DNA from: an uncultured Bacteroidales bacterium | Lineage (GTDB): Bacteria; Bacteroidota; Bacteroidia; Bacteroidales; P3 | NCBI GenBank assembly: GCA_946183915.1 | Contig: CAMHDJ010000004.1 | Span: 1-64,000 of the forward strand | DNA length: 64,000 nt | Direction: 5' to 3' | Part shown: positions 4,566 through 54,694 of the stretch, one piece after another | Position numbering within the stretch: the stretch's first letter is position 1 | Layout of the letters: each line of letters starts with the position of its first letter | Translations under genes and position numbers: made by a program | Notes under the pieces: model-generated | What the model was told of the DNA's origin: nothing | Databases searched by the model: none | Seen by the model: only the letters and a program-made list of their open reading frames with translations

Positions 4566-4630
4566 ATGCAGAGATGATGCAGAGGGGATGCCTAGTTGAT
4601 GCCTGGAGGATGCCTGGTTGATGCCTGGCG
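4566..4630. repeat. 11-bp tandem array, GATGCCTGG family
   Basis: After the leader GCAGAGATGATGCAGAGG come four 11-bp units ending in GATGCCT (for example AGTTGATGCCT). The same leader and units recur at 11312 (plus) and, inverted, at 19346 and 41062. The array lies in the 440-bp gap between tRNA-Asp and tRNA-His, in which I see no gene; the rest of the gap is AT-rich upstream sequence. Confidence 0.8.
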
Positions 4631-11311: not shown

Positions 11312-11405
11312 GCAGAGATGATGCAGAGGGGATGCCTAGATGATGCCTAGATGATGCCTGGATGATGCCTGGATGATGCCTAGATGATGCCTGGATGATG
11401 CCTGG
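11312..11405. repeat. 11-bp tandem array, GATGCCTGG family
   Basis: Leader GCAGAGATGATGCAGAGG followed by seven 11-bp units alternating AGATGATGCCT and GGATGATGCCT. Located in the 343-bp divergent gap between pqqD and pyrH; no gene is visible in that gap. Same family as 4566, 19346 and 41062. Confidence 0.85.
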
Positions 11406-11567
11406 AGGGTGGGGGCGCGGAGGACGGTCAAGCGGGTGATGCTGTGGGGGATAGGTGGAAAGGGAGCATTTTTTTCTTGCACGGGTGAAATATTTTTCCT
11501 ATTTTCGCATGGTTGAACACCGTTGGAAAAACGGTGCAACGATATGTGTGACAAAAAGTTAAACCGT

Positions 11568-19345: not shown

Positions 19346-19431
19346 CCAGGCATCATCCAGGCATCATCCAGGCATCAACTAGGCATCAACTAGGCATCAA
19401 CCATGCATCCCCTCTGCATCATCTCTGCATG
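19346..19431. repeat. 11-bp tandem array, GATGCCTGG family (inverted)
   Basis: On the minus strand the leader GCAGAGATGATGCAGAGG is followed by seven 11-bp units (GGTTGATGCCT/AGTTGATGCCT/GGATGATGCCT). Located in the 202-bp gap between the barrel gene and HsdR_N promoter. Confidence 0.85.
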
Positions 19432-26138: not shown

Positions 26139-26184
26139 TCTCACTCTCCGAGGAACCTTTAGCTCCTTGCCGCTGGCGCGGCAG

Positions 26185-26209
26185 AAATCTCGTAAATCTT
26201 GTAAATTAT
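26185..26209. repeat. left arm of inverted repeat around GxxExxY gene
   Basis: This 25-bp arm contains 9-bp-spaced AAATCTCGT/AAATCTTGT/AAATTAT units and reaches into the ATG of the GxxExxY gene. Its reverse complement matches 26626-26650 at 23 of 25 positions. Confidence 0.9.
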
Positions 26210-26609
26210 GCTGACGCAGCAAGAAATGTATGGTTTGATGTATGAGGTCCGTGGTGCGGCTATGGAAGTGTATAACCACTTCGGACCGGGATTGTTGGAG
26301 TCGGTGTATGAGAAGGCGATGATTCAGGAGTTGGTTTTGCGAGGGTTGCAGGTTGTATCTCAAGCACCTGTCTCCATTATGTACAAAGGTGCTTCTATAG
26401 GAGACGATTTGCGCTTGGATCTACTTGTCGAGAATGAACTGATTGTCGAGCTGAAGTCGGTGGAGGAAATAAAAGACGTTCATTATAAACAGTTAAGGAC
26501 ATATTTGAAACTGCTTGACAAGCCGGAAGGATTGCTGATAAACTTTGGGGAGTATGATTTGAAAAAGGGAATGAGAAGAGTAACGCTAAACGAATATAGG
26601 ACTGCGTAG
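26208..26609 (+). CDS. GxxExxY family protein
   Basis: A 133-residue small protein with the family signature GPGLLESVYEKAM (GxxExxY), EVYNHFGPGL before it, and KGASIGDDLRLDLLVENELIVELKSVEEI, whose D...ELK pattern resembles a PD-(D/E)XK nuclease core. Function is unknown; the family is scattered in Bacteroidota and others. It is AT-richer than its neighbours and is enclosed by a near-perfect 25-bp inverted repeat, so it looks like an inserted cassette between the mannosyltransferase and the peptidase genes. Confidence 0.88.
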   Translation: MLTQQEMYGLMYEVRGAAMEVYNHFGPGLLESVYEKAMIQELVLRGLQVVSQAPVSIMYKGASIGDDLRLDLLVENELIVELKSVEEIKDVHYKQLRTYLKLLDKPEGLLINFGEYDLKKGMRRVTLNEYRTA

Positions 26610-26625
26610 CTTCCCGCGAAGCGGA

Positions 26626-26650
26626 ATAATTTACAAGATTTACAGGATTT
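26626..26650. repeat. right arm of inverted repeat around GxxExxY gene
   Basis: The partner of 26185-26209. Past it, CGCGAGCGAAGCGAGCAGGAG continues to show weak inverted similarity to the sequence before the left arm. Confidence 0.9.
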
Positions 26651-26709
26651 CGCGAGCGAAGCGAGCAGGAGAAAAGAATAAAGATTAATAGAGATTAACA
26701 GAGAAAAAA

Positions 26710-32242: not shown

Positions 32243-32269
32243 GGTTCGGTTGCCTGTCCGGTCCGGGTA

Positions 32270-32379
32270 GTGCTAGGGTAGCGCTAGGGTAAGCCTAGGG
32301 TAATTCTAGGGTAACTATAGGATGACTCCCTGATAACACCCTGATAACACTCTGATGACGCCCTGATGCGGCCCTGATG
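32270..32379. repeat. composite 11-bp array of ten units
   Basis: Ten consecutive units of exactly 11 bp: four of the type nnnCTAGGGTA, a transitional ACTATAGGATG, then five of the type ACnCCCTGATn related to the 4-49 and 25069 arrays. The whole gap 32077-32453 contains no gene; besides this it holds the hairpin at 32199. Confidence 0.9.
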
Positions 32380-36550: not shown

Positions 36551-39500
36551 TTATTTGAAGTACTGCACGCCGGACTCGAAGATCTGCTGGTCGTCGTCGC
36601 CGTAGATGTTCAGGGCGGAGCCCTTGCTGCGGCGCTCGCTGTGGCCCATCTTGCCGAAGACGCGCCCGTCGGGGCTGGTGATGCCCTCGATGGCCATGTA
36701 GGAACCGTTCATGTTGTACTCCTCGTCCATGGTGGGGTTGCCCTGCAGGTCGACATACTGGGTGGCCACCTGGCCGTTCTTGAAGAGGCGGTCGATCCAC
36801 TCCTGCGGTGCCACGAAGCGGCCTTCGCCGTGCGAGATGGGGATGACGTAGGTCTTGCCCAGCTCGGCGCGCTGCAGCCACGGGCTGAGGTTCGAGCTGA
36901 CGCGCGTGTAGGCCATCTTGCTCTGGTGGCGTCCGATGGTGTTGAAGGTCAGCGTGGGGGCATCGGCGGCCTGCGGACGTATCTCGCCGTAGGGCACCAG
37001 GCCCAGCTTCACCAAGGCCTGGAAGCCGTTGCAGATGCCCAGCATCAGGCCGTCGCGCTTGCCCAGGAGCTCCATCACGGCATCGGCGATCCGCGGGTTG
37101 CGGAAGACGCTGGTGATGAACTTGGCGCTGCCCTCCGGCTCGTCGCCGGCCGAGAAGCCGCCGGGGATCATGATGATCTGGCTGCGACGGATGGCGTCGA
37201 CGTAGGCGTCCACGCTTTCGCGGATCTGCTGGCCGTTCTGGTTGCGGAAGACGATGATCTCGCTCTCGGCGCCGGCGCGGTTGAAGGCGCGGGCCGAGTC
37301 GTACTCGCAGTTGGTGCCCGGGAAGGCGGGAATGAAGACGTGCGGCTTGGCAGAATGCGTTAATGTGTTAATGTGTGAATGCGTTAGTGGAGTGGAGGCC
37401 TTGAAGAGCGGGCTTTCCACTTTCATCTTTCCGCTTTCCACTTGGTTGGTGCGGGTGGGGAAGACCCCTTCGAGGGGCTTTTGCCAGGCGGCGAGGGCAT
37501 CCTCGATGCTGATGCGCTCGCCCTTGTACTCGAAGAAGGGCTTGTCGGTGACCACGCCGATCTCGCGGCAGCGGAAGGGCAGCTCGCCCACTTCGGCGGC
37601 GGTCTCGACGATGATGTGGCCGTAGTTGATCTTGCTCAGGTCGTCGAGGGCGATACCGTCGCTGAGGGTCACGCCCAGCTTGTTGCCGAAGGCCATCTTG
37701 CTGATGGCTTCGACCAGTGCGCCGCGACCGATGCAATAGGTCGACAGCACCTGCCCCTGCTCGATGCTGCGACGCAGGGCGGCGTACTGGCTGAGGGCGT
37801 CCTCGTAGTCGGGCATGTCGTAGTCCTTCTGCTTCACGTCGAGCAGCACCAGACGGCTGCCGGCTTTCTTCAGTTCGGGGGTGACGACATGCTGCAGGTC
37901 GCTGATGCCGACGGCGAAGGAGCAGAAGGTGGGCGGCACGTCGATATCGTTGAAGGTGCCGGACATGGAGTCCTTGCCGCCGATGGCGGGCAGGTGGAGG
38001 CCCATCTGGGCGTTGTAGGCACCCAGCAGGGCGCTGAAGGGCTCGCCCCAGCGGTAGGGGTCGTTGCCCAGTTTCTTGAAGTATTCCTGGAAGGTGAGGC
38101 GCACCCGGCTGGCATCGCCACCGGCGGCGGCGATCTTGGCCACCGAGTCGAGCACGGCATAGACGGCGCCGTGGAACGGGCTCCAGCTGAGCTTGTAGGG
38201 GTCGAGACCATAGGACATGATGGTCACCGTGTCGCACTTGCCGTCCAGCAGGGGCAGCTTGCCGATCATGCTCTGCGTGGGCGTCAGCTGATATTTGCCG
38301 CCGAAGGGCATCACCACGCTGCCGGCGCCGATCGAGCTGTCGAACATCTCGACCAGTCCTTTCTGCGAGCAGACGTTGAGGTCAGAAAGAACTTTAAGCC
38401 AAAGTTCTTTAGTGTTCAGTGGGCAGTGTTCAGCGTTCAGTGAGGTGGGGCCGTTTGCGTCAGCCAACTGACCACTGACCACTGACCACTGACCACTCTT
38501 CTCCGGCATGGTCACCGAGACGGTGGTCTCCTGGTGGGCGCCGTTGGTGTCGATGAAGCGGCGGCTGAGGTTGACGATCTCCTTGCCACGCCAGCTGATC
38601 ACCATGCGGGGCTCCTCAGTGACGGTGGCTACCACCGTGGCCTCGAGGTTCTCCTCATCGGCATAGCGCAGCATCTGGTCCACGTCCTTCGGGTCGACCA
38701 CCACGGCCATGCGCTCTTGGCTCTCGCTGATGGCCAGCTCGGTGCCGTCGAGGCCGGCGTACTTCTTGGGCACGCGATCCAGGTTGATCTGCAGGCCGTC
38801 GGCCAACTCGCCGATGGCCACACTGACGCCGCCGGCGCCGAAGTCGTTGCACTTCTTGATGAGCGACGACACCTCTTCGCGGCGGAAGAGGCGCTGTATC
38901 TTGCGTTCGGTGGGGGCATTGCCCTTCTGCACCTCGGCACCGCAGGTGGTGAGGCTCTTGGTGGTGTGGCTCTTCGAGGCGCCCGTGGCACCACCGATGC
39001 CGTCGCGGCCCGTGCGGCCACCCAGAAGGATGATGACGTCGCCCGGGTCGGAGGTGAGGCGCTTCACGGCGCGGCGCGGCGCAGCGGCAATGACGGCGCC
39101 GATCTCCATGCGCTTGGCCACATAGCCCGGATGGTAGATCTCGTTGACCAGGCCGGTGGCCAGGCCGATCTGATTGCCGTAGCTGCTGTAGCCGCGGGCG
39201 GCGGTGGTGACGATCTTGCGCTGCGGCAGCTTGCCGGGCAGGGTCTCGCTGAGGGGCTTGGTGGGATCGGCGGCGCCGGTGACGCGCATGGCCTGGTACA
39301 CGTAGGTGCGGCCGCTCAGCGGGTCGCGGATGCAGCCGCCCAGGCAGGTGGCCGCGCCGCCGAAGGGCTCGATCTCGGTCGGATGGTTGTGGGTCTCGTT
39401 CTTGAAGTTGATGAGCCACTCCTCGCGGTTGCCGTCGATCGTGACGGGCACCACGATCGAGCAGGCATTGATCTCGTCGCTCGGCTCCTGGTCGTCCAGG

Positions 39501-41061: not shown

Positions 41062-41185
41062 GTCATCCAGGCATCATCCAGGCATCATCTAGGCATCAAC
41101 TAGGCATCAACTAGGCATCAACTAGGCATCAACTAGGCATCAACTAGGCATCCTCCAAGCATCCCCTCTGCATCATCTCTGCATG
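41062..41185. repeat. 11-bp tandem array, GATGCCTGG family (inverted, longest copy)
   Basis: On the minus strand the leader GCAGAGATGATGCAGAGG is followed by about nine to ten 11-bp units, mostly AGTTGATGCCT. It occupies much of the 410-bp divergent gap between the acyltransferase and the lipoprotein gene, in which no ORF with coding character is seen. Confidence 0.9.
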
Positions 41186-43091: not shown

Positions 43092-43544
43092 TTGAAAACG
43101 GTGGCGGTGGCCCTCTGCACCGCCTTGACGCTGGGCCTGGTGGGCTGCCAGCCCGACAACGAGGACCTCATCATCGGCTCGTGGCAGGTCGTGGGCTGTA
43201 CCATTACCGAGACTGTTGACGGTCAAAGCAGTACAAGAACGGAGGCTCTTCCGGTTGGGTACAGTGAGACTTGTACGTTCAACAAGGATAACACTTTTGT
43301 CGGCAAACGGACTGGAGGGGGCGGTAGCGATACCTATCAGGGTACCTATTCGCTCAGCGACGACCAGCTTACCATTGCTGTCAACTCCGACTGGCAGGAC
43401 GACGAGGGCGAGTGGCACAGCACGGTCGATACCAAAACCGCTACCATTAAGAATCTCGACAAGAAGGAGTTGGTGATGGTGTGGACCGAGACGGAGGGCT
43501 CGAATTATACCTATTCGGTGGAATACAAGCTCAAGAAGATGTGA
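43092..43544 (+). CDS. lipocalin-like lipoprotein, paralogue without ATG start
   Basis: A 150-residue paralogue of the preceding protein: hydrophobic signal TVAVALCTALTLGLVGC, then QPDNEDLIIGSWQVVG and YSVEYKLKKM at the end. No ATG is available; TTG at 43092 is the likely start. Upstream in frame ATA AAG AAT TTA TTG AAA mirrors the paralogue's start, suggesting an ATG changed to ATA at 43080. A terminator follows. Confidence 0.75.
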   Translation: MKTVAVALCTALTLGLVGCQPDNEDLIIGSWQVVGCTITETVDGQSSTRTEALPVGYSETCTFNKDNTFVGKRTGGGGSDTYQGTYSLSDDQLTIAVNSDWQDDEGEWHSTVDTKTATIKNLDKKELVMVWTETEGSNYTYSVEYKLKKM

Positions 43545-43569
43545 TTCGACGCTGACTGGAAAACAATGG

Positions 43570-43610
43570 CCTGGGCGGCGCTCGCTGAGCGCCGCCCAGG
43601 TTTTTATTTT
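43570..43610 (+). terminator. rho-independent terminator
   Basis: A 14-bp perfect stem CCTGGGCGGCGCTC and complement, 3-base loop, followed by TTTTTATTTT. Confidence 0.93.
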
Positions 43611-43674
43611 ATTCGTCGCCCACGCACAATAAACCCATGGCGGTGGCGTTATATATGCTAAAATTTATATCAAG

Positions 43675-44949
43675 ATGTTACAACTGCAATACATAAAAGA
43701 CCATCGTGAGGAGTGTATCTCCCGCTTGAAAATCAAGAATGTGAAGGATGTCGAGGCCCGCCTGGCCGAGATCCTGGAACTCGACGCCCAGCGCCGCGCC
43801 CTGCAGGTGAAGGCCGACGCCGTCAAGGCCGAGCAGAACCGCATGGCCAAGGAGATCGGCATGCTGATGAAACAGGGCAAGAAGGAGGAGGCCGAGGCCG
43901 CCAAGGCCCGCACCGCCGAGCTGAAGGGCGAGGAGAAAGCCCTCAGCGAGGAGCAGGCCGCCACCGAGAAGACCCTCAACGAGAAGCTCATCTCGCTGCC
44001 CAACGCGCCGCATCCCTCGGTGCCGTGCGGCACCAGCGAGGCCGACAATGTGGTGGTGGGCGAGTTCGGCACGAAGCCCGACCTGCCCGCCGATGCCTTG
44101 CCCCACTGGGACCTCTGCGCCAAGTACGACATCATCGACTTCGAGTTGGGCAACAAGGTGACCGGCGCCGGCTTCCCCTTCTACAAGGGCAAGGGTGCCC
44201 GTCTGCAGCGTGCCCTGATCAACTTCTTCCTCAACGAGGCCGCCGACGCGGGCTTCGTGGAGGTTCAGCCCCCGCTGATGGTCAACGAAGCCTCGGGTCT
44301 CGGCACCGGCCAGCTGCCCGACAAGGAGGGTCAGATGTACGCCATCCCGCTCGACGGCTTCTACATGATCCCCACGGCCGAAGTGCCTATCACCAACATC
44401 TTCCGTGGCGAGGTGGTCGACGCCAAGCAGTTCCCCATCAAGCGAGTGGGCTACAGCGAGTGCTTCCGCCGCGAGGCCGGCAGCTACGGCAAGGACGTCC
44501 GCGGCCTGAACCGTCTGCACGAGTTCTCGAAGGTTGAGATTGTTGTCATCGAGCACCCCGACCGCTCCTACGACATGCTGGAGGAGATGAAGCGCCACGT
44601 GGGCGGCCTGCTCGACAAGCTGGGTTTGCCCTACCACATCCTCAAGCTCTGCGGAGGCGACATCAGCTTCACCTCGGCCATGACCTTCGACTTCGAGGTG
44701 TGGAGCGCCGCACAGAAACGCTGGCTCGAGGTGAGCTCGGTATCCAACTTCGAGACCTTCCAGGCCAACCGCATGAAGCTCCGCTTCAAGGACGAGAACG
44801 GCAAGATGCAGCTCTGCCACACGCTGAACGGCTCGGCCCTGGCCCTACCGCGCATCGTCGCCGCCCTGCTGGAGAACAACCAGACGCCCGACGGAATCGT
44901 CATGCCCGAGTGCCTGAGACCCTATCTTGGATTTGATGTTATTGATTAG
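43675..44949 (+). CDS. serS: seryl-tRNA synthetase
   Basis: A 424-residue class II aminoacyl-tRNA synthetase. The N-terminal coiled-coil tRNA arm runs to about residue 105 (Lys/Glu/Ala-rich heptads). Motif 2 is CFRREAGSYGKDVRGLNRLHEF and motif 3 ALALPRIVAALLENNQ. It is followed by 9-bp repeats and the four-helix-bundle ORF. Confidence 0.97.
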   Translation: MLQLQYIKDHREECISRLKIKNVKDVEARLAEILELDAQRRALQVKADAVKAEQNRMAKEIGMLMKQGKKEEAEAAKARTAELKGEEKALSEEQAATEKTLNEKLISLPNAPHPSVPCGTSEADNVVVGEFGTKPDLPADALPHWDLCAKYDIIDFELGNKVTGAGFPFYKGKGARLQRALINFFLNEAADAGFVEVQPPLMVNEASGLGTGQLPDKEGQMYAIPLDGFYMIPTAEVPITNIFRGEVVDAKQFPIKRVGYSECFRREAGSYGKDVRGLNRLHEFSKVEIVVIEHPDRSYDMLEEMKRHVGGLLDKLGLPYHILKLCGGDISFTSAMTFDFEVWSAAQKRWLEVSSVSNFETFQANRMKLRFKDENGKMQLCHTLNGSALALPRIVAALLENNQTPDGIVMPECLRPYLGFDVID

Positions 44950-44950
44950 T

Positions 44951-45003
44951 AGTGAGAGAAGTGAGGGAAGTGAAAGAAGTGAAAGAAGTGAAAGAAGTGA
45001 AAG
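44951..45003. repeat. 9-bp tandem repeat AGTGAAAGA, left of four-helix-bundle gene
   Basis: Six units: AGTGAGAGA, AGTGAGGGA and four AGTGAAAGA, starting 1-2 bp after the serS stop. Complementary units in inverted order lie at 45493-45528, on the other side of the gene at 45040. Confidence 0.9.
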
Positions 45004-45039
45004 ACGATAGCGGTTTCTCTCACATATACTAAGAAAAAT

Positions 45040-45432
45040 ATGGATGCCAGATATGGTTTTCAACGGGTAGTGGCGTGGCAAAAAGCGCATGCTTTTGTAG
45101 TGCTTGTCTACAAAGTCACTCGAACATTCCCTGACGACGAACGATTTGGACTGACATCTCAGTTCAGACGAGCAGCGGTTTCGATAGAAGCAAATATTGC
45201 TGAGGGTTACAAGAAGATTAGCAAGGCCGACAAGTTGCGCTTCTATAATATATCGCAAGGCAGTCTTGAAGAATGCAGGAATTATGTTATCCTTTCATAC
45301 GATCTAAACTATATAGACGAAAGATTGTTTGACCAATTATGTGACGCGTTGGAGGATGCCAGCCGGTTGATTAACGCCTATTGTGAAAGTATTGTAAGAG
45401 ATGTGGCGATGAGGAACGATGATTTAAAGTGA
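45040..45432 (+). CDS. four helix bundle protein (23S rRNA intervening-sequence ORF family)
   Basis: A 130-residue helical protein of the four-helix-bundle/S23 family, with the usual QRVVAWQKAHAFVVLVY, FGLTSQFRRAAVSIEANIAEGY and FYNISQGSLEECRNYVILSYDL. Members were first seen as ORFs within intervening sequences of 23S rRNA genes, and the diversity-generating-retroelement protein Avd is related. It is AT-richer than its neighbours and flanked by 9-bp repeats in inverted orientation, so it looks like a cassette inserted between serS and fprA. Confidence 0.9.
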   Translation: MDARYGFQRVVAWQKAHAFVVLVYKVTRTFPDDERFGLTSQFRRAAVSIEANIAEGYKKISKADKLRFYNISQGSLEECRNYVILSYDLNYIDERLFDQLCDALEDASRLINAYCESIVRDVAMRNDDLK

Positions 45433-45492
45433 ATTAAAAAAACAATATAAAGAAGGAAAGAATGCATAAGACTAAGGAAGGCGAGGTATTGT

Positions 45493-45528
45493 CTTTCACT
45501 TCTGTCACTTCTCTCCCTTCTTTCAATT
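45493..45528. repeat. 9-bp tandem repeat TTTCACTTC, right of four-helix-bundle gene
   Basis: Four units TTTCACTTC, TGTCACTTC, TCTCCCTTC, TTTCAATTC, complementary to those at 44951. They end 10 bp before the fprA ATG. Confidence 0.9.
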
Positions 45529-45538
45529 CTTAAAGAAA

Positions 45539-46735
45539 ATGCAAAACATACAGAAAATACACGAAAACCTGATCTATGTCGGTGCCAGCGACCGTCGCCT
45601 GGCCCTGTTTGAGAATGTGTACCCCATTCCGCGTGGGGTGAGCTATAACAGCTATGTGTTGCTGGACGAGAAGACGGTGCTCTTCGACACCGTCGACGCC
45701 TCGGTGGCCCAGCAGTTCTACGAGAACGTCGAGGCCGCCCTCGCCTGCCGCAAACTGGACTACGTGGTGGTGCACCACATGGAGCCCGACCACGCCGCCA
45801 CGCTGATGGATCTCCTGCTGCGTCATCCTGAGGCCACGGTGGTCACCACCGCCAAGGCCGCCCAGATGATCGAGCAGTTCTTCGGTGCCAAGCCTGCCAA
45901 TGTGCAGGCTGTCAAAGAGGGCGATACCCTCGCCACCGGCACCCACACGCTTGTCTTCACCATGGCCCCCATGGTGCACTGGCCCGAGGTGATGATGACC
46001 TACGACAGCACCAGCAAGACCCTCTTCTCCGCCGACGCCTTCGGCACCTTTGGCGCCCTCAGCGGCAACCTCTTCGCCGACGAGGTGAACTTCGAGCACG
46101 AGTGGCTCAACGACGCCCGCCGCTACTACATCAATATCGTGGGCAAGTACGGTCTGCAGGTGCAGAACGTTCTGAAGAAGGCCGCCACGCTCGACATCCA
46201 GATGATCTGTCCGCTGCACGGTCCGGTGTGGCGCGAGAACCTCGGTTGGTTCATTGGCAAGCACGACACTTGGAGTAAGTACGAGCCCGAGGATAGGGGA
46301 GTGGTCATCATCTATAGCAGCATCTACGGCCACACCGAAGCCGCCGCCCTGCGTCTGGGCACGCTGCTCTCGGAGCGTGGTGTGCGTGGCATCAAGGCCT
46401 ACGACGCCAGCCACACGCACGCCAGCAAGCTGGTGGCCGAGTGCTTCCGCGCCAGCCATGTGGTCCTGGCTTCCAGCACCTACAACAATGGCATCTTTAC
46501 CCCCATGGAGAGCCTCCTGGCCGACCTCAAGGCCCATGCCTGGCAGAAGCGCACCGTTGCTCTCATCGAAAACGGCAGCTGGGCCGCGCAGAGCGGCAAA
46601 CTGATGCGCGCCGAGCTGGAGCAGATGAAGGACATCGCCATCGTCGGCGATACGGTATCGCTCAAGAGCGCCGCCACCCCCGCCCAGGAGGAGCAGCTCG
46701 CCGCCCTGGCCGACGCGATTGTCGCCACTCTTTAA
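45539..46735 (+). CDS. fprA: FprA-type flavo-diiron protein (O2/NO reductase)
   Basis: A 398-residue A-type flavoprotein: an N-terminal metallo-beta-lactamase-like diiron domain with HHMEPDH (His80, Glu82, Asp84, His85) and HGPVWREN, and a C-terminal flavodoxin domain starting GVVIIYSSIYGHTEAAAL. It reduces O2 to water or NO to N2O. The next gene encodes its usual electron donor, a flavin reductase-rubredoxin fusion. Role: protection of an anaerobe. Confidence 0.95.
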   Translation: MQNIQKIHENLIYVGASDRRLALFENVYPIPRGVSYNSYVLLDEKTVLFDTVDASVAQQFYENVEAALACRKLDYVVVHHMEPDHAATLMDLLLRHPEATVVTTAKAAQMIEQFFGAKPANVQAVKEGDTLATGTHTLVFTMAPMVHWPEVMMTYDSTSKTLFSADAFGTFGALSGNLFADEVNFEHEWLNDARRYYINIVGKYGLQVQNVLKKAATLDIQMICPLHGPVWRENLGWFIGKHDTWSKYEPEDRGVVIIYSSIYGHTEAAALRLGTLLSERGVRGIKAYDASHTHASKLVAECFRASHVVLASSTYNNGIFTPMESLLADLKAHAWQKRTVALIENGSWAAQSGKLMRAELEQMKDIAIVGDTVSLKSAATPAQEEQLAALADAIVATL

Positions 46736-46760
46736 ACCTTAAACTTTAAACCATAAACCA
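46734..46760. repeat. heptamer CTTAAAC array before hrb
   Basis: TTAAACCTTAAACTTTAAAC run ending 6 bp before the ATG; matches 28711-28741. Confidence 0.8.
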
Positions 46761-46766
46761 ATAATC

Positions 46767-47435
46767 ATGATTGACAACAAAGCCCTTTTCACCATTGGTT
46801 ACGGCCTATATGTCCTTGTCGCCCGGCAGGGCGACAAGGACAACGCCTGTATCATCAACGTGGCCCAGCAGGTCAGCAGCGACCCGCTGCAGCTGATGAT
46901 CTGCGTCAATAAGGCGAACCTCACGCACGACATGGTGCTGCGCACGCTGAAGTTCAACCTCTGTCCCCTCAGCGAGGAGGCCACCATGAAGCCCTTCCAG
47001 CACTTCGGCTTCCAGAGCGGCCGCGATGTAGACAAGTTCGCCGGCTGCGAGCAGGAGCTGCGTACGGAGAACGGCCTGCTGTACCTGCCGAAGTTCATCA
47101 ATGCCGTCATCAGCTGCGTCGTCACCAAGAGCATCGACCTCGGCAGCCACACCATGTTCATCGCCATGCCGCTGGAGGCCCGTATCCTCAGCGACAGCCC
47201 GTCCATCACCTACGCCTACTACCAGCAGCACATCAAACAAGTGGGTGGTGGGCAGTTGAAAGTGGATAGCAATAGTGGTCAGGTGCCACCCACTACCCAC
47301 TCCACACTACCCACTCAAAAGAAGTGGGTCTGCGACGTCTGCGGCTACGTCTACGAAGGCGACTCTCTGCCACCCGACTTCATCTGCCCCTGGTGCAAGC
47401 ACCCTGCCAGCGACTTCCGCTTGATGGAACAATAA
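46767..47435 (+). CDS. hrb: high-molecular-weight rubredoxin (flavin reductase-rubredoxin fusion)
   Basis: A 222-residue fusion: residues 1-155 are a flavin reductase domain (FTIGYGLYVLVARQGDKDNACIINVAQQV), residues 184-222 a rubredoxin with [10 protein letters not shown] and ICPWCKHPAS. Such Hrb proteins pass electrons from NAD(P)H to FprA, as known in Moorella. The linker (about 157-182, GGGQLKVDSNSGQVPPTTHS...) is encoded by a heptamer repeat element at 47238-47315. Its 3' end is duplicated at 48326-48384 beyond the DinD-like gene. Confidence 0.93.
   Translation: MIDNKALFTIGYGLYVLVARQGDKDNACIINVAQQVSSDPLQLMICVNKANLTHDMVLRTLKFNLCPLSEEATMKPFQHFGFQSGRDVDKFAGCEQELRTENGLLYLPKFINAVISCVVTKSIDLGSHTMFIAMPLEARILSDSPSITYAYYQQHIKQVGGGQLKVDSNSGQVPPTTHSTLPTQKKWVCDVCGYVYEGDSLPPDFICPWCKHPASDFRLMEQ
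47238..47315. repeat. in-frame palindromic heptamer element in hrb linker
   Basis: Left arm units AGTGGGT, GGTGGGC, AGTTGAA, AGTGGAT; right arm ACCCACT, ACCCACTCC, ACTACCC, ACTC, inverted. It lies exactly between the flavin reductase and rubredoxin domains and keeps the frame. Confidence 0.82.
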
Positions 47436-49720: not shown

Positions 49721-49797
49721 CTTACTCAACTCCTACTCTTCGCCTACTCAACTCCTAGTCAACACCTACTCGAGTAGGAGAAGAGTAGGCGAAGATT
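49721..49797. repeat. seven 11-bp units with palindromic centre (CCTACTCnnnn family)
   Basis: Exactly 7 x 11 bp: four units beginning CCTACTC or CTTACTC, then CCTACTCGAGT and its complement-like AGGAGAAGAGT, AGGCGAAGATT; the centre CCTACTCGAGTAGG is a 14-bp palindrome. The same seven-unit layout is at 54565-54641. The 560-bp gap 49456-50017 has no gene. Confidence 0.9.
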
Positions 49798-50560: not shown

Positions 50561-50567
50561 GCAGTGG

Positions 50568-50674
50568 TAAGTGTTTAGTGTTTAGTGTGCTACGCAGAAT
50601 AATGGCGGCAACTAAACACTAAACACTGAACACTAAACACTGAACACTAAACACTAAACACTGAACACTGAACA
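50568..50674. repeat. palindromic heptamer element, ACTAAAC/ACTGAAC
   Basis: Left arm AGTGGTA-AGTGTTT-AGTGTTT-AGTGTGC; a loop of about 20 bp; right arm nine inverted heptamers ACTAAAC/ACTGAAC ending 2 bp before the lpxK ATG. It fills the rubrerythrin-lpxK gap. Confidence 0.92.
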
Positions 50675-50676
50675 CG

Positions 50677-54453: not shown

Positions 54454-54564
54454 TCGAGTAATTCGCCGTTAAAAAACACCCACCTCGCCGTTAAAAAAAT
54501 CCCCGCCGCTGCCATTTTCGTCCCCTTGCAACCCTCTTTCGGCCAGCATGATGCGCCACCATCT

Positions 54565-54641
54565 CCTACTCATCGCCTACTATCCTCCTTGTCTTCGCCT
54601 TAAGAAAATTTACTCGAGTAGGCAATAAGTAGGCGAAGAGT
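54565..54641. repeat. seven 11-bp units, CCTACTC family, second copy
   Basis: Seven units CCTACTCATCG ... TTTACTCGAGT, AGGCAATAAGT, AGGCGAAGAGT, laid out as in 49721-49797. Ends 53 bp before the DUF6266 ATG. Confidence 0.88.
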
Positions 54642-54694
54642 ACGTTATGATCAGTGGAAAATAGATGGTAAACTCCTAATCAACCTTTAGCAAT

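Follow-up and report, generated by a model that had tools for sequence, protein, structure and literature searches.

Genes for the IVP ("four helix bundle protein") and for GxxExxY proteins are common and unexplained in bacteria, and a gene of the first kind lies between serS and fprA in the window, the stretch of 64,000 nucleotides that we analysed from an uncultured Bacteroidales bacterium (genome G000, 2.22 Mb). Short tandem repeats stand on both sides of it, and the two arrays are complementary to each other. What kind of element is this, and how can its two ends change completely and yet still match? In the reading that we favor, with a probability of roughly 0.55, the locus is a mobile cassette of minimal size, whose ends are inverted tandem arrays that correct themselves and whose ORF lives on host transcription. 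The host genes and the parts of the cassette are as follows.

43675 to 44949, plus strand: serS, the upstream host gene, assigned as an ORF and by tblastn to congeneric serS
44951 to 45004, plus strand: 5' arm of six 9-bp AGTGAAAGA-type tandem units (TRF score 87)
45003 to 45009, plus strand: GACGATA, the inner-end motif of the 5' arm (family form GACAATA), which pairs with TATTGTC; assigned from the sequence
45040 to 45432, plus strand: ORF of 130 aa, a four-helix bundle of the 23S rRNA-intervening-sequence protein family, assigned by profile matches
45487 to 45493, plus strand: TATTGTC, the inner-end motif of the 3' arm, from inverted-repeat and shuffle analysis
45492 to 45531, plus strand: 3' arm of 4.4 TCTTTCACT-type units, the reverse complement of the 5' arm (TRF)
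45539 to 46735, plus strand: fprA-type flavodiiron protein gene, the downstream host gene, starting 8 nt past the 3' arm

The stop codon of serS is one base away from the first unit of the 5' arm, and the arms enclose the IVP ORF only. The best ungapped arms (44967-45009 and 45487-45529) are 43 nt long and 88% complementary, and their score of 30.5 was reached in 0 of 5000 shuffles of both intergenic flanks in which the dinucleotides were kept (shuffled mean 7.7, maximum 15.5). Together with the units found by TRF, this bears out the initial annotation, which had described six AGTGAAAGA units before the ORF and complementary units after it. Its assignment of the ORF to the four-helix-bundle family of the intervening sequences was also correct, as the protein lies above the cutoffs of both PF05635 (23S_rRNA_IVP; E 3.3e-36, 124.2 bits vs 33.8) and TIGR02436 (four helix bundle protein; E 1.3e-34, 118.7 bits vs 24); the match to PDB entry 2gsc has an E of 9.6e-19. 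The initial annotation did not mention the motif at the inner arm ends: in the subfamily of this ORF, GACAATA/TATTGTC or a near form stands there at many unrelated sites. Solo arms occur in the same genome: one (L081:17466-17487) resembles the 3' arm of the window cassette, including the TATTGTC end, and another (L071:6541-6567) is almost identical to the 5' arm of cassette L002.

The same flank architecture had been claimed for a GxxExxY cassette, and such a cassette is indeed present at 26184-26651 of the window.

26184 to 26209, plus strand: 5' arm of the GxxExxY-type cassette, 9-bp AAATCTTGT units (array survey)
26208 to 26609, plus strand: GxxExxY ORF (PDDEXK_3, PF13366; E 2.3e-40)
26626 to 26651, plus strand: 3' arm of the GxxExxY-type cassette (array survey)

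The window also contains array hairpins that lack an ORF. The AGTGTTY unit family has 63 pattern matches in this genome, in about a dozen clusters, one of them with an IVP.

38411 to 38497, no strand assigned: ORF-less array hairpin of 7-bp AGTGTTC/GTCAGTG units amid minus-strand genes (array survey)
50562 to 50675, no strand assigned: ORF-less array hairpin of the AGTGTTY unit family, as in the arms of an IVP cassette of the same genome (L003)

The genome-wide comparison of four-helix-bundle ORFs that had been suggested shows inverted tandem arrays at five of the six IVP genes, with a different unit at each, and all three GxxExxY genes of this genome lie between such arrays. In the genus, 63 of 69 IVP loci have arms by the criterion that no more than 1 in 100 shuffles of one flank (dinucleotides kept) attains the observed score, and each locus has its own unit of 7-10 bp; an arm score of at least 17 is found at 57 of the 69 loci, compared with 3 of 1500 (0.2%) random pseudo-cassettes from this genome. 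The view that one flank design serves two unrelated ORF families, IVP and GxxExxY, thus holds for the genome and for the genus. By the same criterion, arms are present at 24 of 30 GxxExxY loci across the order, at 22 of 37 best-matching IVPs across Bacteroidota, and at 55 of 80 IVPs of named genomes from many phyla, a set that includes Desulfobacula, Syntrophaceae, Planctomycetota, SAR324, Verrucomicrobiota, and Alphaproteobacteria; the fraction of IVPs without significant arms varies by set from about 9 to 40%. All seven IVP copies on viral contigs have arms, no IVP was found in phage records, and plasmid IVPs amount to 31 records, mostly of cyanobacteria, whose plasmid copies carry arms. The contig profile scan for IVPs used a four-protein alignment, which favors one IVP subfamily. 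Among the unit lengths, a period of 7 occurs most often (39 of 68 IVP 5' arms), and the 9 bp of the window locus are therefore one case among several.

Is the cassette an insertion? The serS-fprA spacer measures 589 nt here, compared with 5 nt in G010, the closest relative in which the pair is adjacent (serS 96% identical), and 12 (G369), 41 (G012), and 75 nt (G029) in three others. Comparison with the empty-site relatives, which are too diverged for junction alignment so that a target-site duplication is not definable from them, shows the serS-fprA cassette as an insertion into a tight operon spacer. The second site, the spacer upstream of an lptF-type gene, was compared in 29 congeneric species. 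It holds six full IVP cassettes (L190, L192, L193, L198, L215, L216), a copy with arms whose IVP codons are reduced to scraps (L209), a single arm each in L206 and L211, an ORF-less hairpin of IVP type with GACAA/TTGTC ends (L205), and an ORF-less hairpin of GxxExxY type (L203), and about 17 species have a plain spacer of 5-55 nt. These states indicate that one spacer has been entered by different element types, and that full copies decay to empty hairpins. A fixed presence, which the initial annotation had named as speaking against its proposal, was not found: presence is patchy at the serS site as well as at the lptF site.

Close IVPs at unrelated sites can have the same array unit, as in L020/L023 (90% amino acid identity) and L021/L152 (87%), and L016/L150 and L036/L163 are further pairs with a common unit. 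Among pairs of at least 55% amino acid identity, mean arm similarity is 0.47 at the same site and 0.29 at other sites, compared with a baseline of 0.17 for unrelated IVPs. As related ORFs at unrelated sites carry like arm units, the arms are not borrowed from the target site, and travel with the ORF. The insertion states at two sites and the units carried to new sites support the proposed mobility on an evolutionary scale. Against the favored reading, no ongoing movement was observed. In G002, the most crowded genome examined (18 IVPs, of which 11 were read), the copies read include no near-identical ones and reach at most 58% identity; therefore, either movement seldom happens, or the divergence of arms and ORFs is rapid. 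The closest pair of IVPs at different sites of the same genome has 84% protein identity.

The arms also change together. In 16 groups of orthologous copies, defined by the same flanking genes and an alignable ORF, the arms have differing units (at the lptF site, for instance, AGTGTTC, AGTGATG, and AGTGATAAGTGTGA), and the pairing of arms with their own partners amounts to 1054, compared with 876 ± 34 when the 3' arms were redealt (0 of 20000). As the 3' arms were redealt inside each ortholog group, homology at the site is controlled for. The pN/pS of the ORF is 0.11-0.35 with dS near saturation, which indicates purifying selection.

How the match is kept is the point at which the alternatives diverge. 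An mRNA version of the rRNA intervening sequence, which we consider doubtful, would have the arms pair in the serS-fprA transcript, where RNase III would cut the stem, freeing the IVP message and splitting the serS and fprA mRNAs, and the stem would be kept by selection on RNA structure. The protein family and the stem-plus-ORF anatomy are as in the 23S IVSs (PMC4990558), an RNA fold of the cassette pairs the arms (-161 kcal/mol, z -3.3), and the IVP 5' arms are C-poor and G-rich (6% vs 29%), so that self-pairing is not easy. The orientation of the ORF-bearing cassettes, determined from codon scores and checked on serS and fprA, agrees as well: where it could be resolved, the ORF has the direction of its upstream neighbor in 64 of 64 cases and that of its downstream neighbor in 61 of 62. 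However, the arm mismatches at 141 loci comprise 126 G.U and 157 A.C, with no excess of G.U in any set; the test assumes mutation without strand asymmetry, and a strand bias could blur it. The missing G.U preference points to an upkeep of the match at the DNA level and not at the RNA level. Furthermore, ORF-less hairpins are retained in both orientations: in the 459,517 bases of this genome that were surveyed for them, orientation relative to the neighbors was 11 vs 16 sides. It was read from the G-rich arm, a proxy that is correct for 62 of the 66 ORF-bearing loci in which G and C are unequal. The replacement of whole units in both arms between orthologs would also be hard to achieve by single compensatory changes. 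In two species, the ORF-less hairpins after serS (L112/L113) differ by an inverted loop, with 31 of 33 positions matching in inverted and 19 of 33 in direct orientation; this is the one loop inversion that was found. Random orientation and loop inversion are consistent with a hairpin of DNA across which templates are switched or recombination takes place. The mechanism acting on stem-loops that the initial annotation had proposed is, if taken as an RNA-level process, so far unsupported by the mismatch counts, the random orientation of the ORF-less hairpins, and the inverted loop. The sense-only pattern of the ORF-bearing copies is read as retention, in which an ORF that is not transcribed by the host operon would be lost while the hairpin stays.

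It is improbable, in our view, that the array hairpins are an independent intergenic repeat family, like the heptamers of cyanobacteria and Bacteroidota, into whose loops IVP and GxxExxY genes insert by target preference. In its favor, ORF-less hairpins of the same unit families, such as AGTGTTY, are common in this genome, and three hairpin types occur at the lptF site in different species. In contrast, an ORF lineage keeps its arm units when it appears at new sites, the GACAATA inner-end motif tracks one IVP subfamily across sites, L209 indicates the direction from full to empty, and a hairpin is absent altogether from close relatives that lack the insert. Still less likely is a retro-element relative in which IVP would act like the Avd of diversity-generating retroelements (DGRs), and a reverse transcriptase in trans would copy the stem-loop RNA to new sites. 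Avd is a related four-helix bundle with a pentameric ring fold, IVP is related to bAvd in sequence (bAvd E 3e-4, DivGenRetAVD E 7e-7) and in structure (PMC10053308), and the uniform sense orientation would suit this idea, whereas the genome has a single reverse transcriptase gene (RVT_1), the genus has no bAvd above the Pfam cutoff, and the ORF-less hairpins in both orientations misfit an mRNA intermediate. A DGR or reverse transcriptase was rejected as the explanation on the same two gene counts, and the surroundings of the cassette gave no indication of a DGR. That these are ordinary operon genes with an odd terminator-like spacer and nothing mobile is hardly credible: old copies passed on vertically at a single site are numerous, and purifying selection acts on the ORF, but presence is patchy at the serS and lptF sites, sites are reused by different types, the same cassette stands at unrelated sites, and insertions are found in cmr and cas operons of plasmids.

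The mobile cassette with self-correcting ends agrees with what the comparisons show at the level of sequence, namely that arms and ORF move together, that the arms co-vary, that decay leaves ORF-less hairpins and solo arms behind, and that ORF-bearing copies persist in sense only. Each cassette is about 0.4-0.6 kb long and consists of one short ORF (IVP or GxxExxY) between inverted arrays of a 7-10 bp unit. We propose that slippage alters units in one arm, and that template switching across the foldback would then copy the changed unit to the other arm, a hairpin-templated correction at the DNA level. Movement, too, probably has the hairpin DNA as its substrate. As no transposase is encoded in the cassette, the enzyme that cuts and moves it would be supplied in trans. 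The IVP is of a ring-forming four-helix-bundle family and is likely to bind the arms or the hairpin of its own cassette and to aid movement or maintenance, and the ORF probably relies on the serS-fprA transcript. The arm units of this genome's cassettes and units from other genomes had no clear difference in abundance (about 2.9 vs 1.9 clusters), and a mobilization of ORF-less hairpins in trans by IVP is therefore not supported. More tentatively, the cassettes may represent a class of mobile elements in many phyla, whose hypervariable tandem-array ends would regenerate their complementarity at the DNA level, whose copies would be recognized by shape and not by sequence, and for which IVP and GxxExxY would be their own hairpin-handling factors. 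If recognition does go by the shape of the hairpin, an element would have another means of preserving its ends. For the IVP and GxxExxY genes, we thus offer a context, in which they are carried by a very small cassette that inserts into operons in the gap from a stop codon to the next start codon, and decayed cassettes are a possible origin for many short tandem-array hairpins of these genomes.

Several known systems resemble the cassette in part. The 23S IVSs of Coxiella, Leptospira, and Salmonella likewise have a long inverted-repeat stem whose loop holds a member of this protein family, and they are patchy insertions that are held to be selfish (PMC4990558); in Coxiella, a 28-bp stem is cut by RNase III (PMC4990558). 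The IVSs of the literature are located in rRNA (PMC4990558, PMC11270868), whereas the cassettes lie between protein genes of operons, and their arms are co-varying tandem arrays with a unit of their own at each locus. As it is outside rRNA (an Rfam search of window 43500-47000 gave zero matches), the serS-fprA cassette does not qualify as an IVS as the term is normally used. REPIN/RAYT systems (REPINs: PMC3116915) and MITEs are likewise small intergenic hairpin elements with one gene between hairpins of the same type and ORF-less relatives elsewhere, but the cassette has no Y1 or other transposase, and its arms are simple, hypervariable tandem arrays. RAYTs were rejected as carriers of the arms, as the two Y1_Tnp genes of this genome lie elsewhere and are flanked by their own GC-rich REPs; since the RAYTs here carry other hairpins, the cassette is not a REPIN/RAYT pair. 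As in DNA transposons and MITEs, the terminal inverted repeats travel with the element; in contrast to MITEs, each copy has ends of its own that consist of tandem arrays. The heptamer (TAACTGA) tandem repeats of Cyanobacteria, Beggiatoaceae, and Bacteroidota are also intergenic 7-bp arrays by stop and start codons, and they are direct repeats with one indirect repeat reported, whereas the parts of that report available to us describe no tie to inverted pairs or to IVP and GxxExxY genes (PMC4679880).

IVP has been listed as CRISPR-associated by deep clustering (PMC10910872), and the same family does occur in cas operons. Two cyanobacterial plasmid loci that we examined carry cassette arms: in Picosynechococcus PCC 7003, the cassette lies between cmr2 and cmr3 (L308), and in Pseudanabaena galeata between cas6 and cas4 (L310). 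As these copies have arms, the CRISPR link looks like hitchhiking. IVP is probably a passenger in CRISPR operons, at least some IVP genes within them are accounted for in this way, and the cmr and cas insertions may explain the listing. We found no earlier description of this architecture in a search confined to the open-access literature, and priority is therefore uncertain.

Other repeats of the window and the genome differ from the cassettes in several respects. Arrays of an 11-bp unit, TGATGCCTGGA / AGGCATCAACT, occur at four places in the window (4566-4628, 11316-11406, 19346-19430, and 41063-41184) and form a repeat family that is distinct from the cassette arms. Inverted pairs of 11-bp arrays with a small or absent loop (TACTCAACTCC / GAGTAGGAGAA and others) lie at window positions 49723-49795, 54560-54642, and 32265-32379, and in the one such pair that was scored, the 5' side is C-rich, unlike in the IVP arms. 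A dispersed hairpin repeat of 150-200 nt, with arms of the type AACGGCGAATTACTCGAA..., has similar copies genome-wide (L074:662-859, L075:3962-4150, L080:14489-14642, L083:6367-6516, L084:4018-4167, L087:11623-11772) and is probably a MITE-like family. Paired AAATAGATCGTGCACGATCTA elements with a spacing of 146 or about 260-290 nt are recurrent in the genome as well (L075:2937-3265, L076:16102-16404, L080:14670-14849, L082:6533-6712, L086:11272-11597). Finally, an array hairpin at L076:15479-15558 lies within the coding sequence of an EamA-type transporter and is translated as a Ser/Pro-rich linker; as the coding sequence reads through the hairpin, arrays are able to enter genes in frame.
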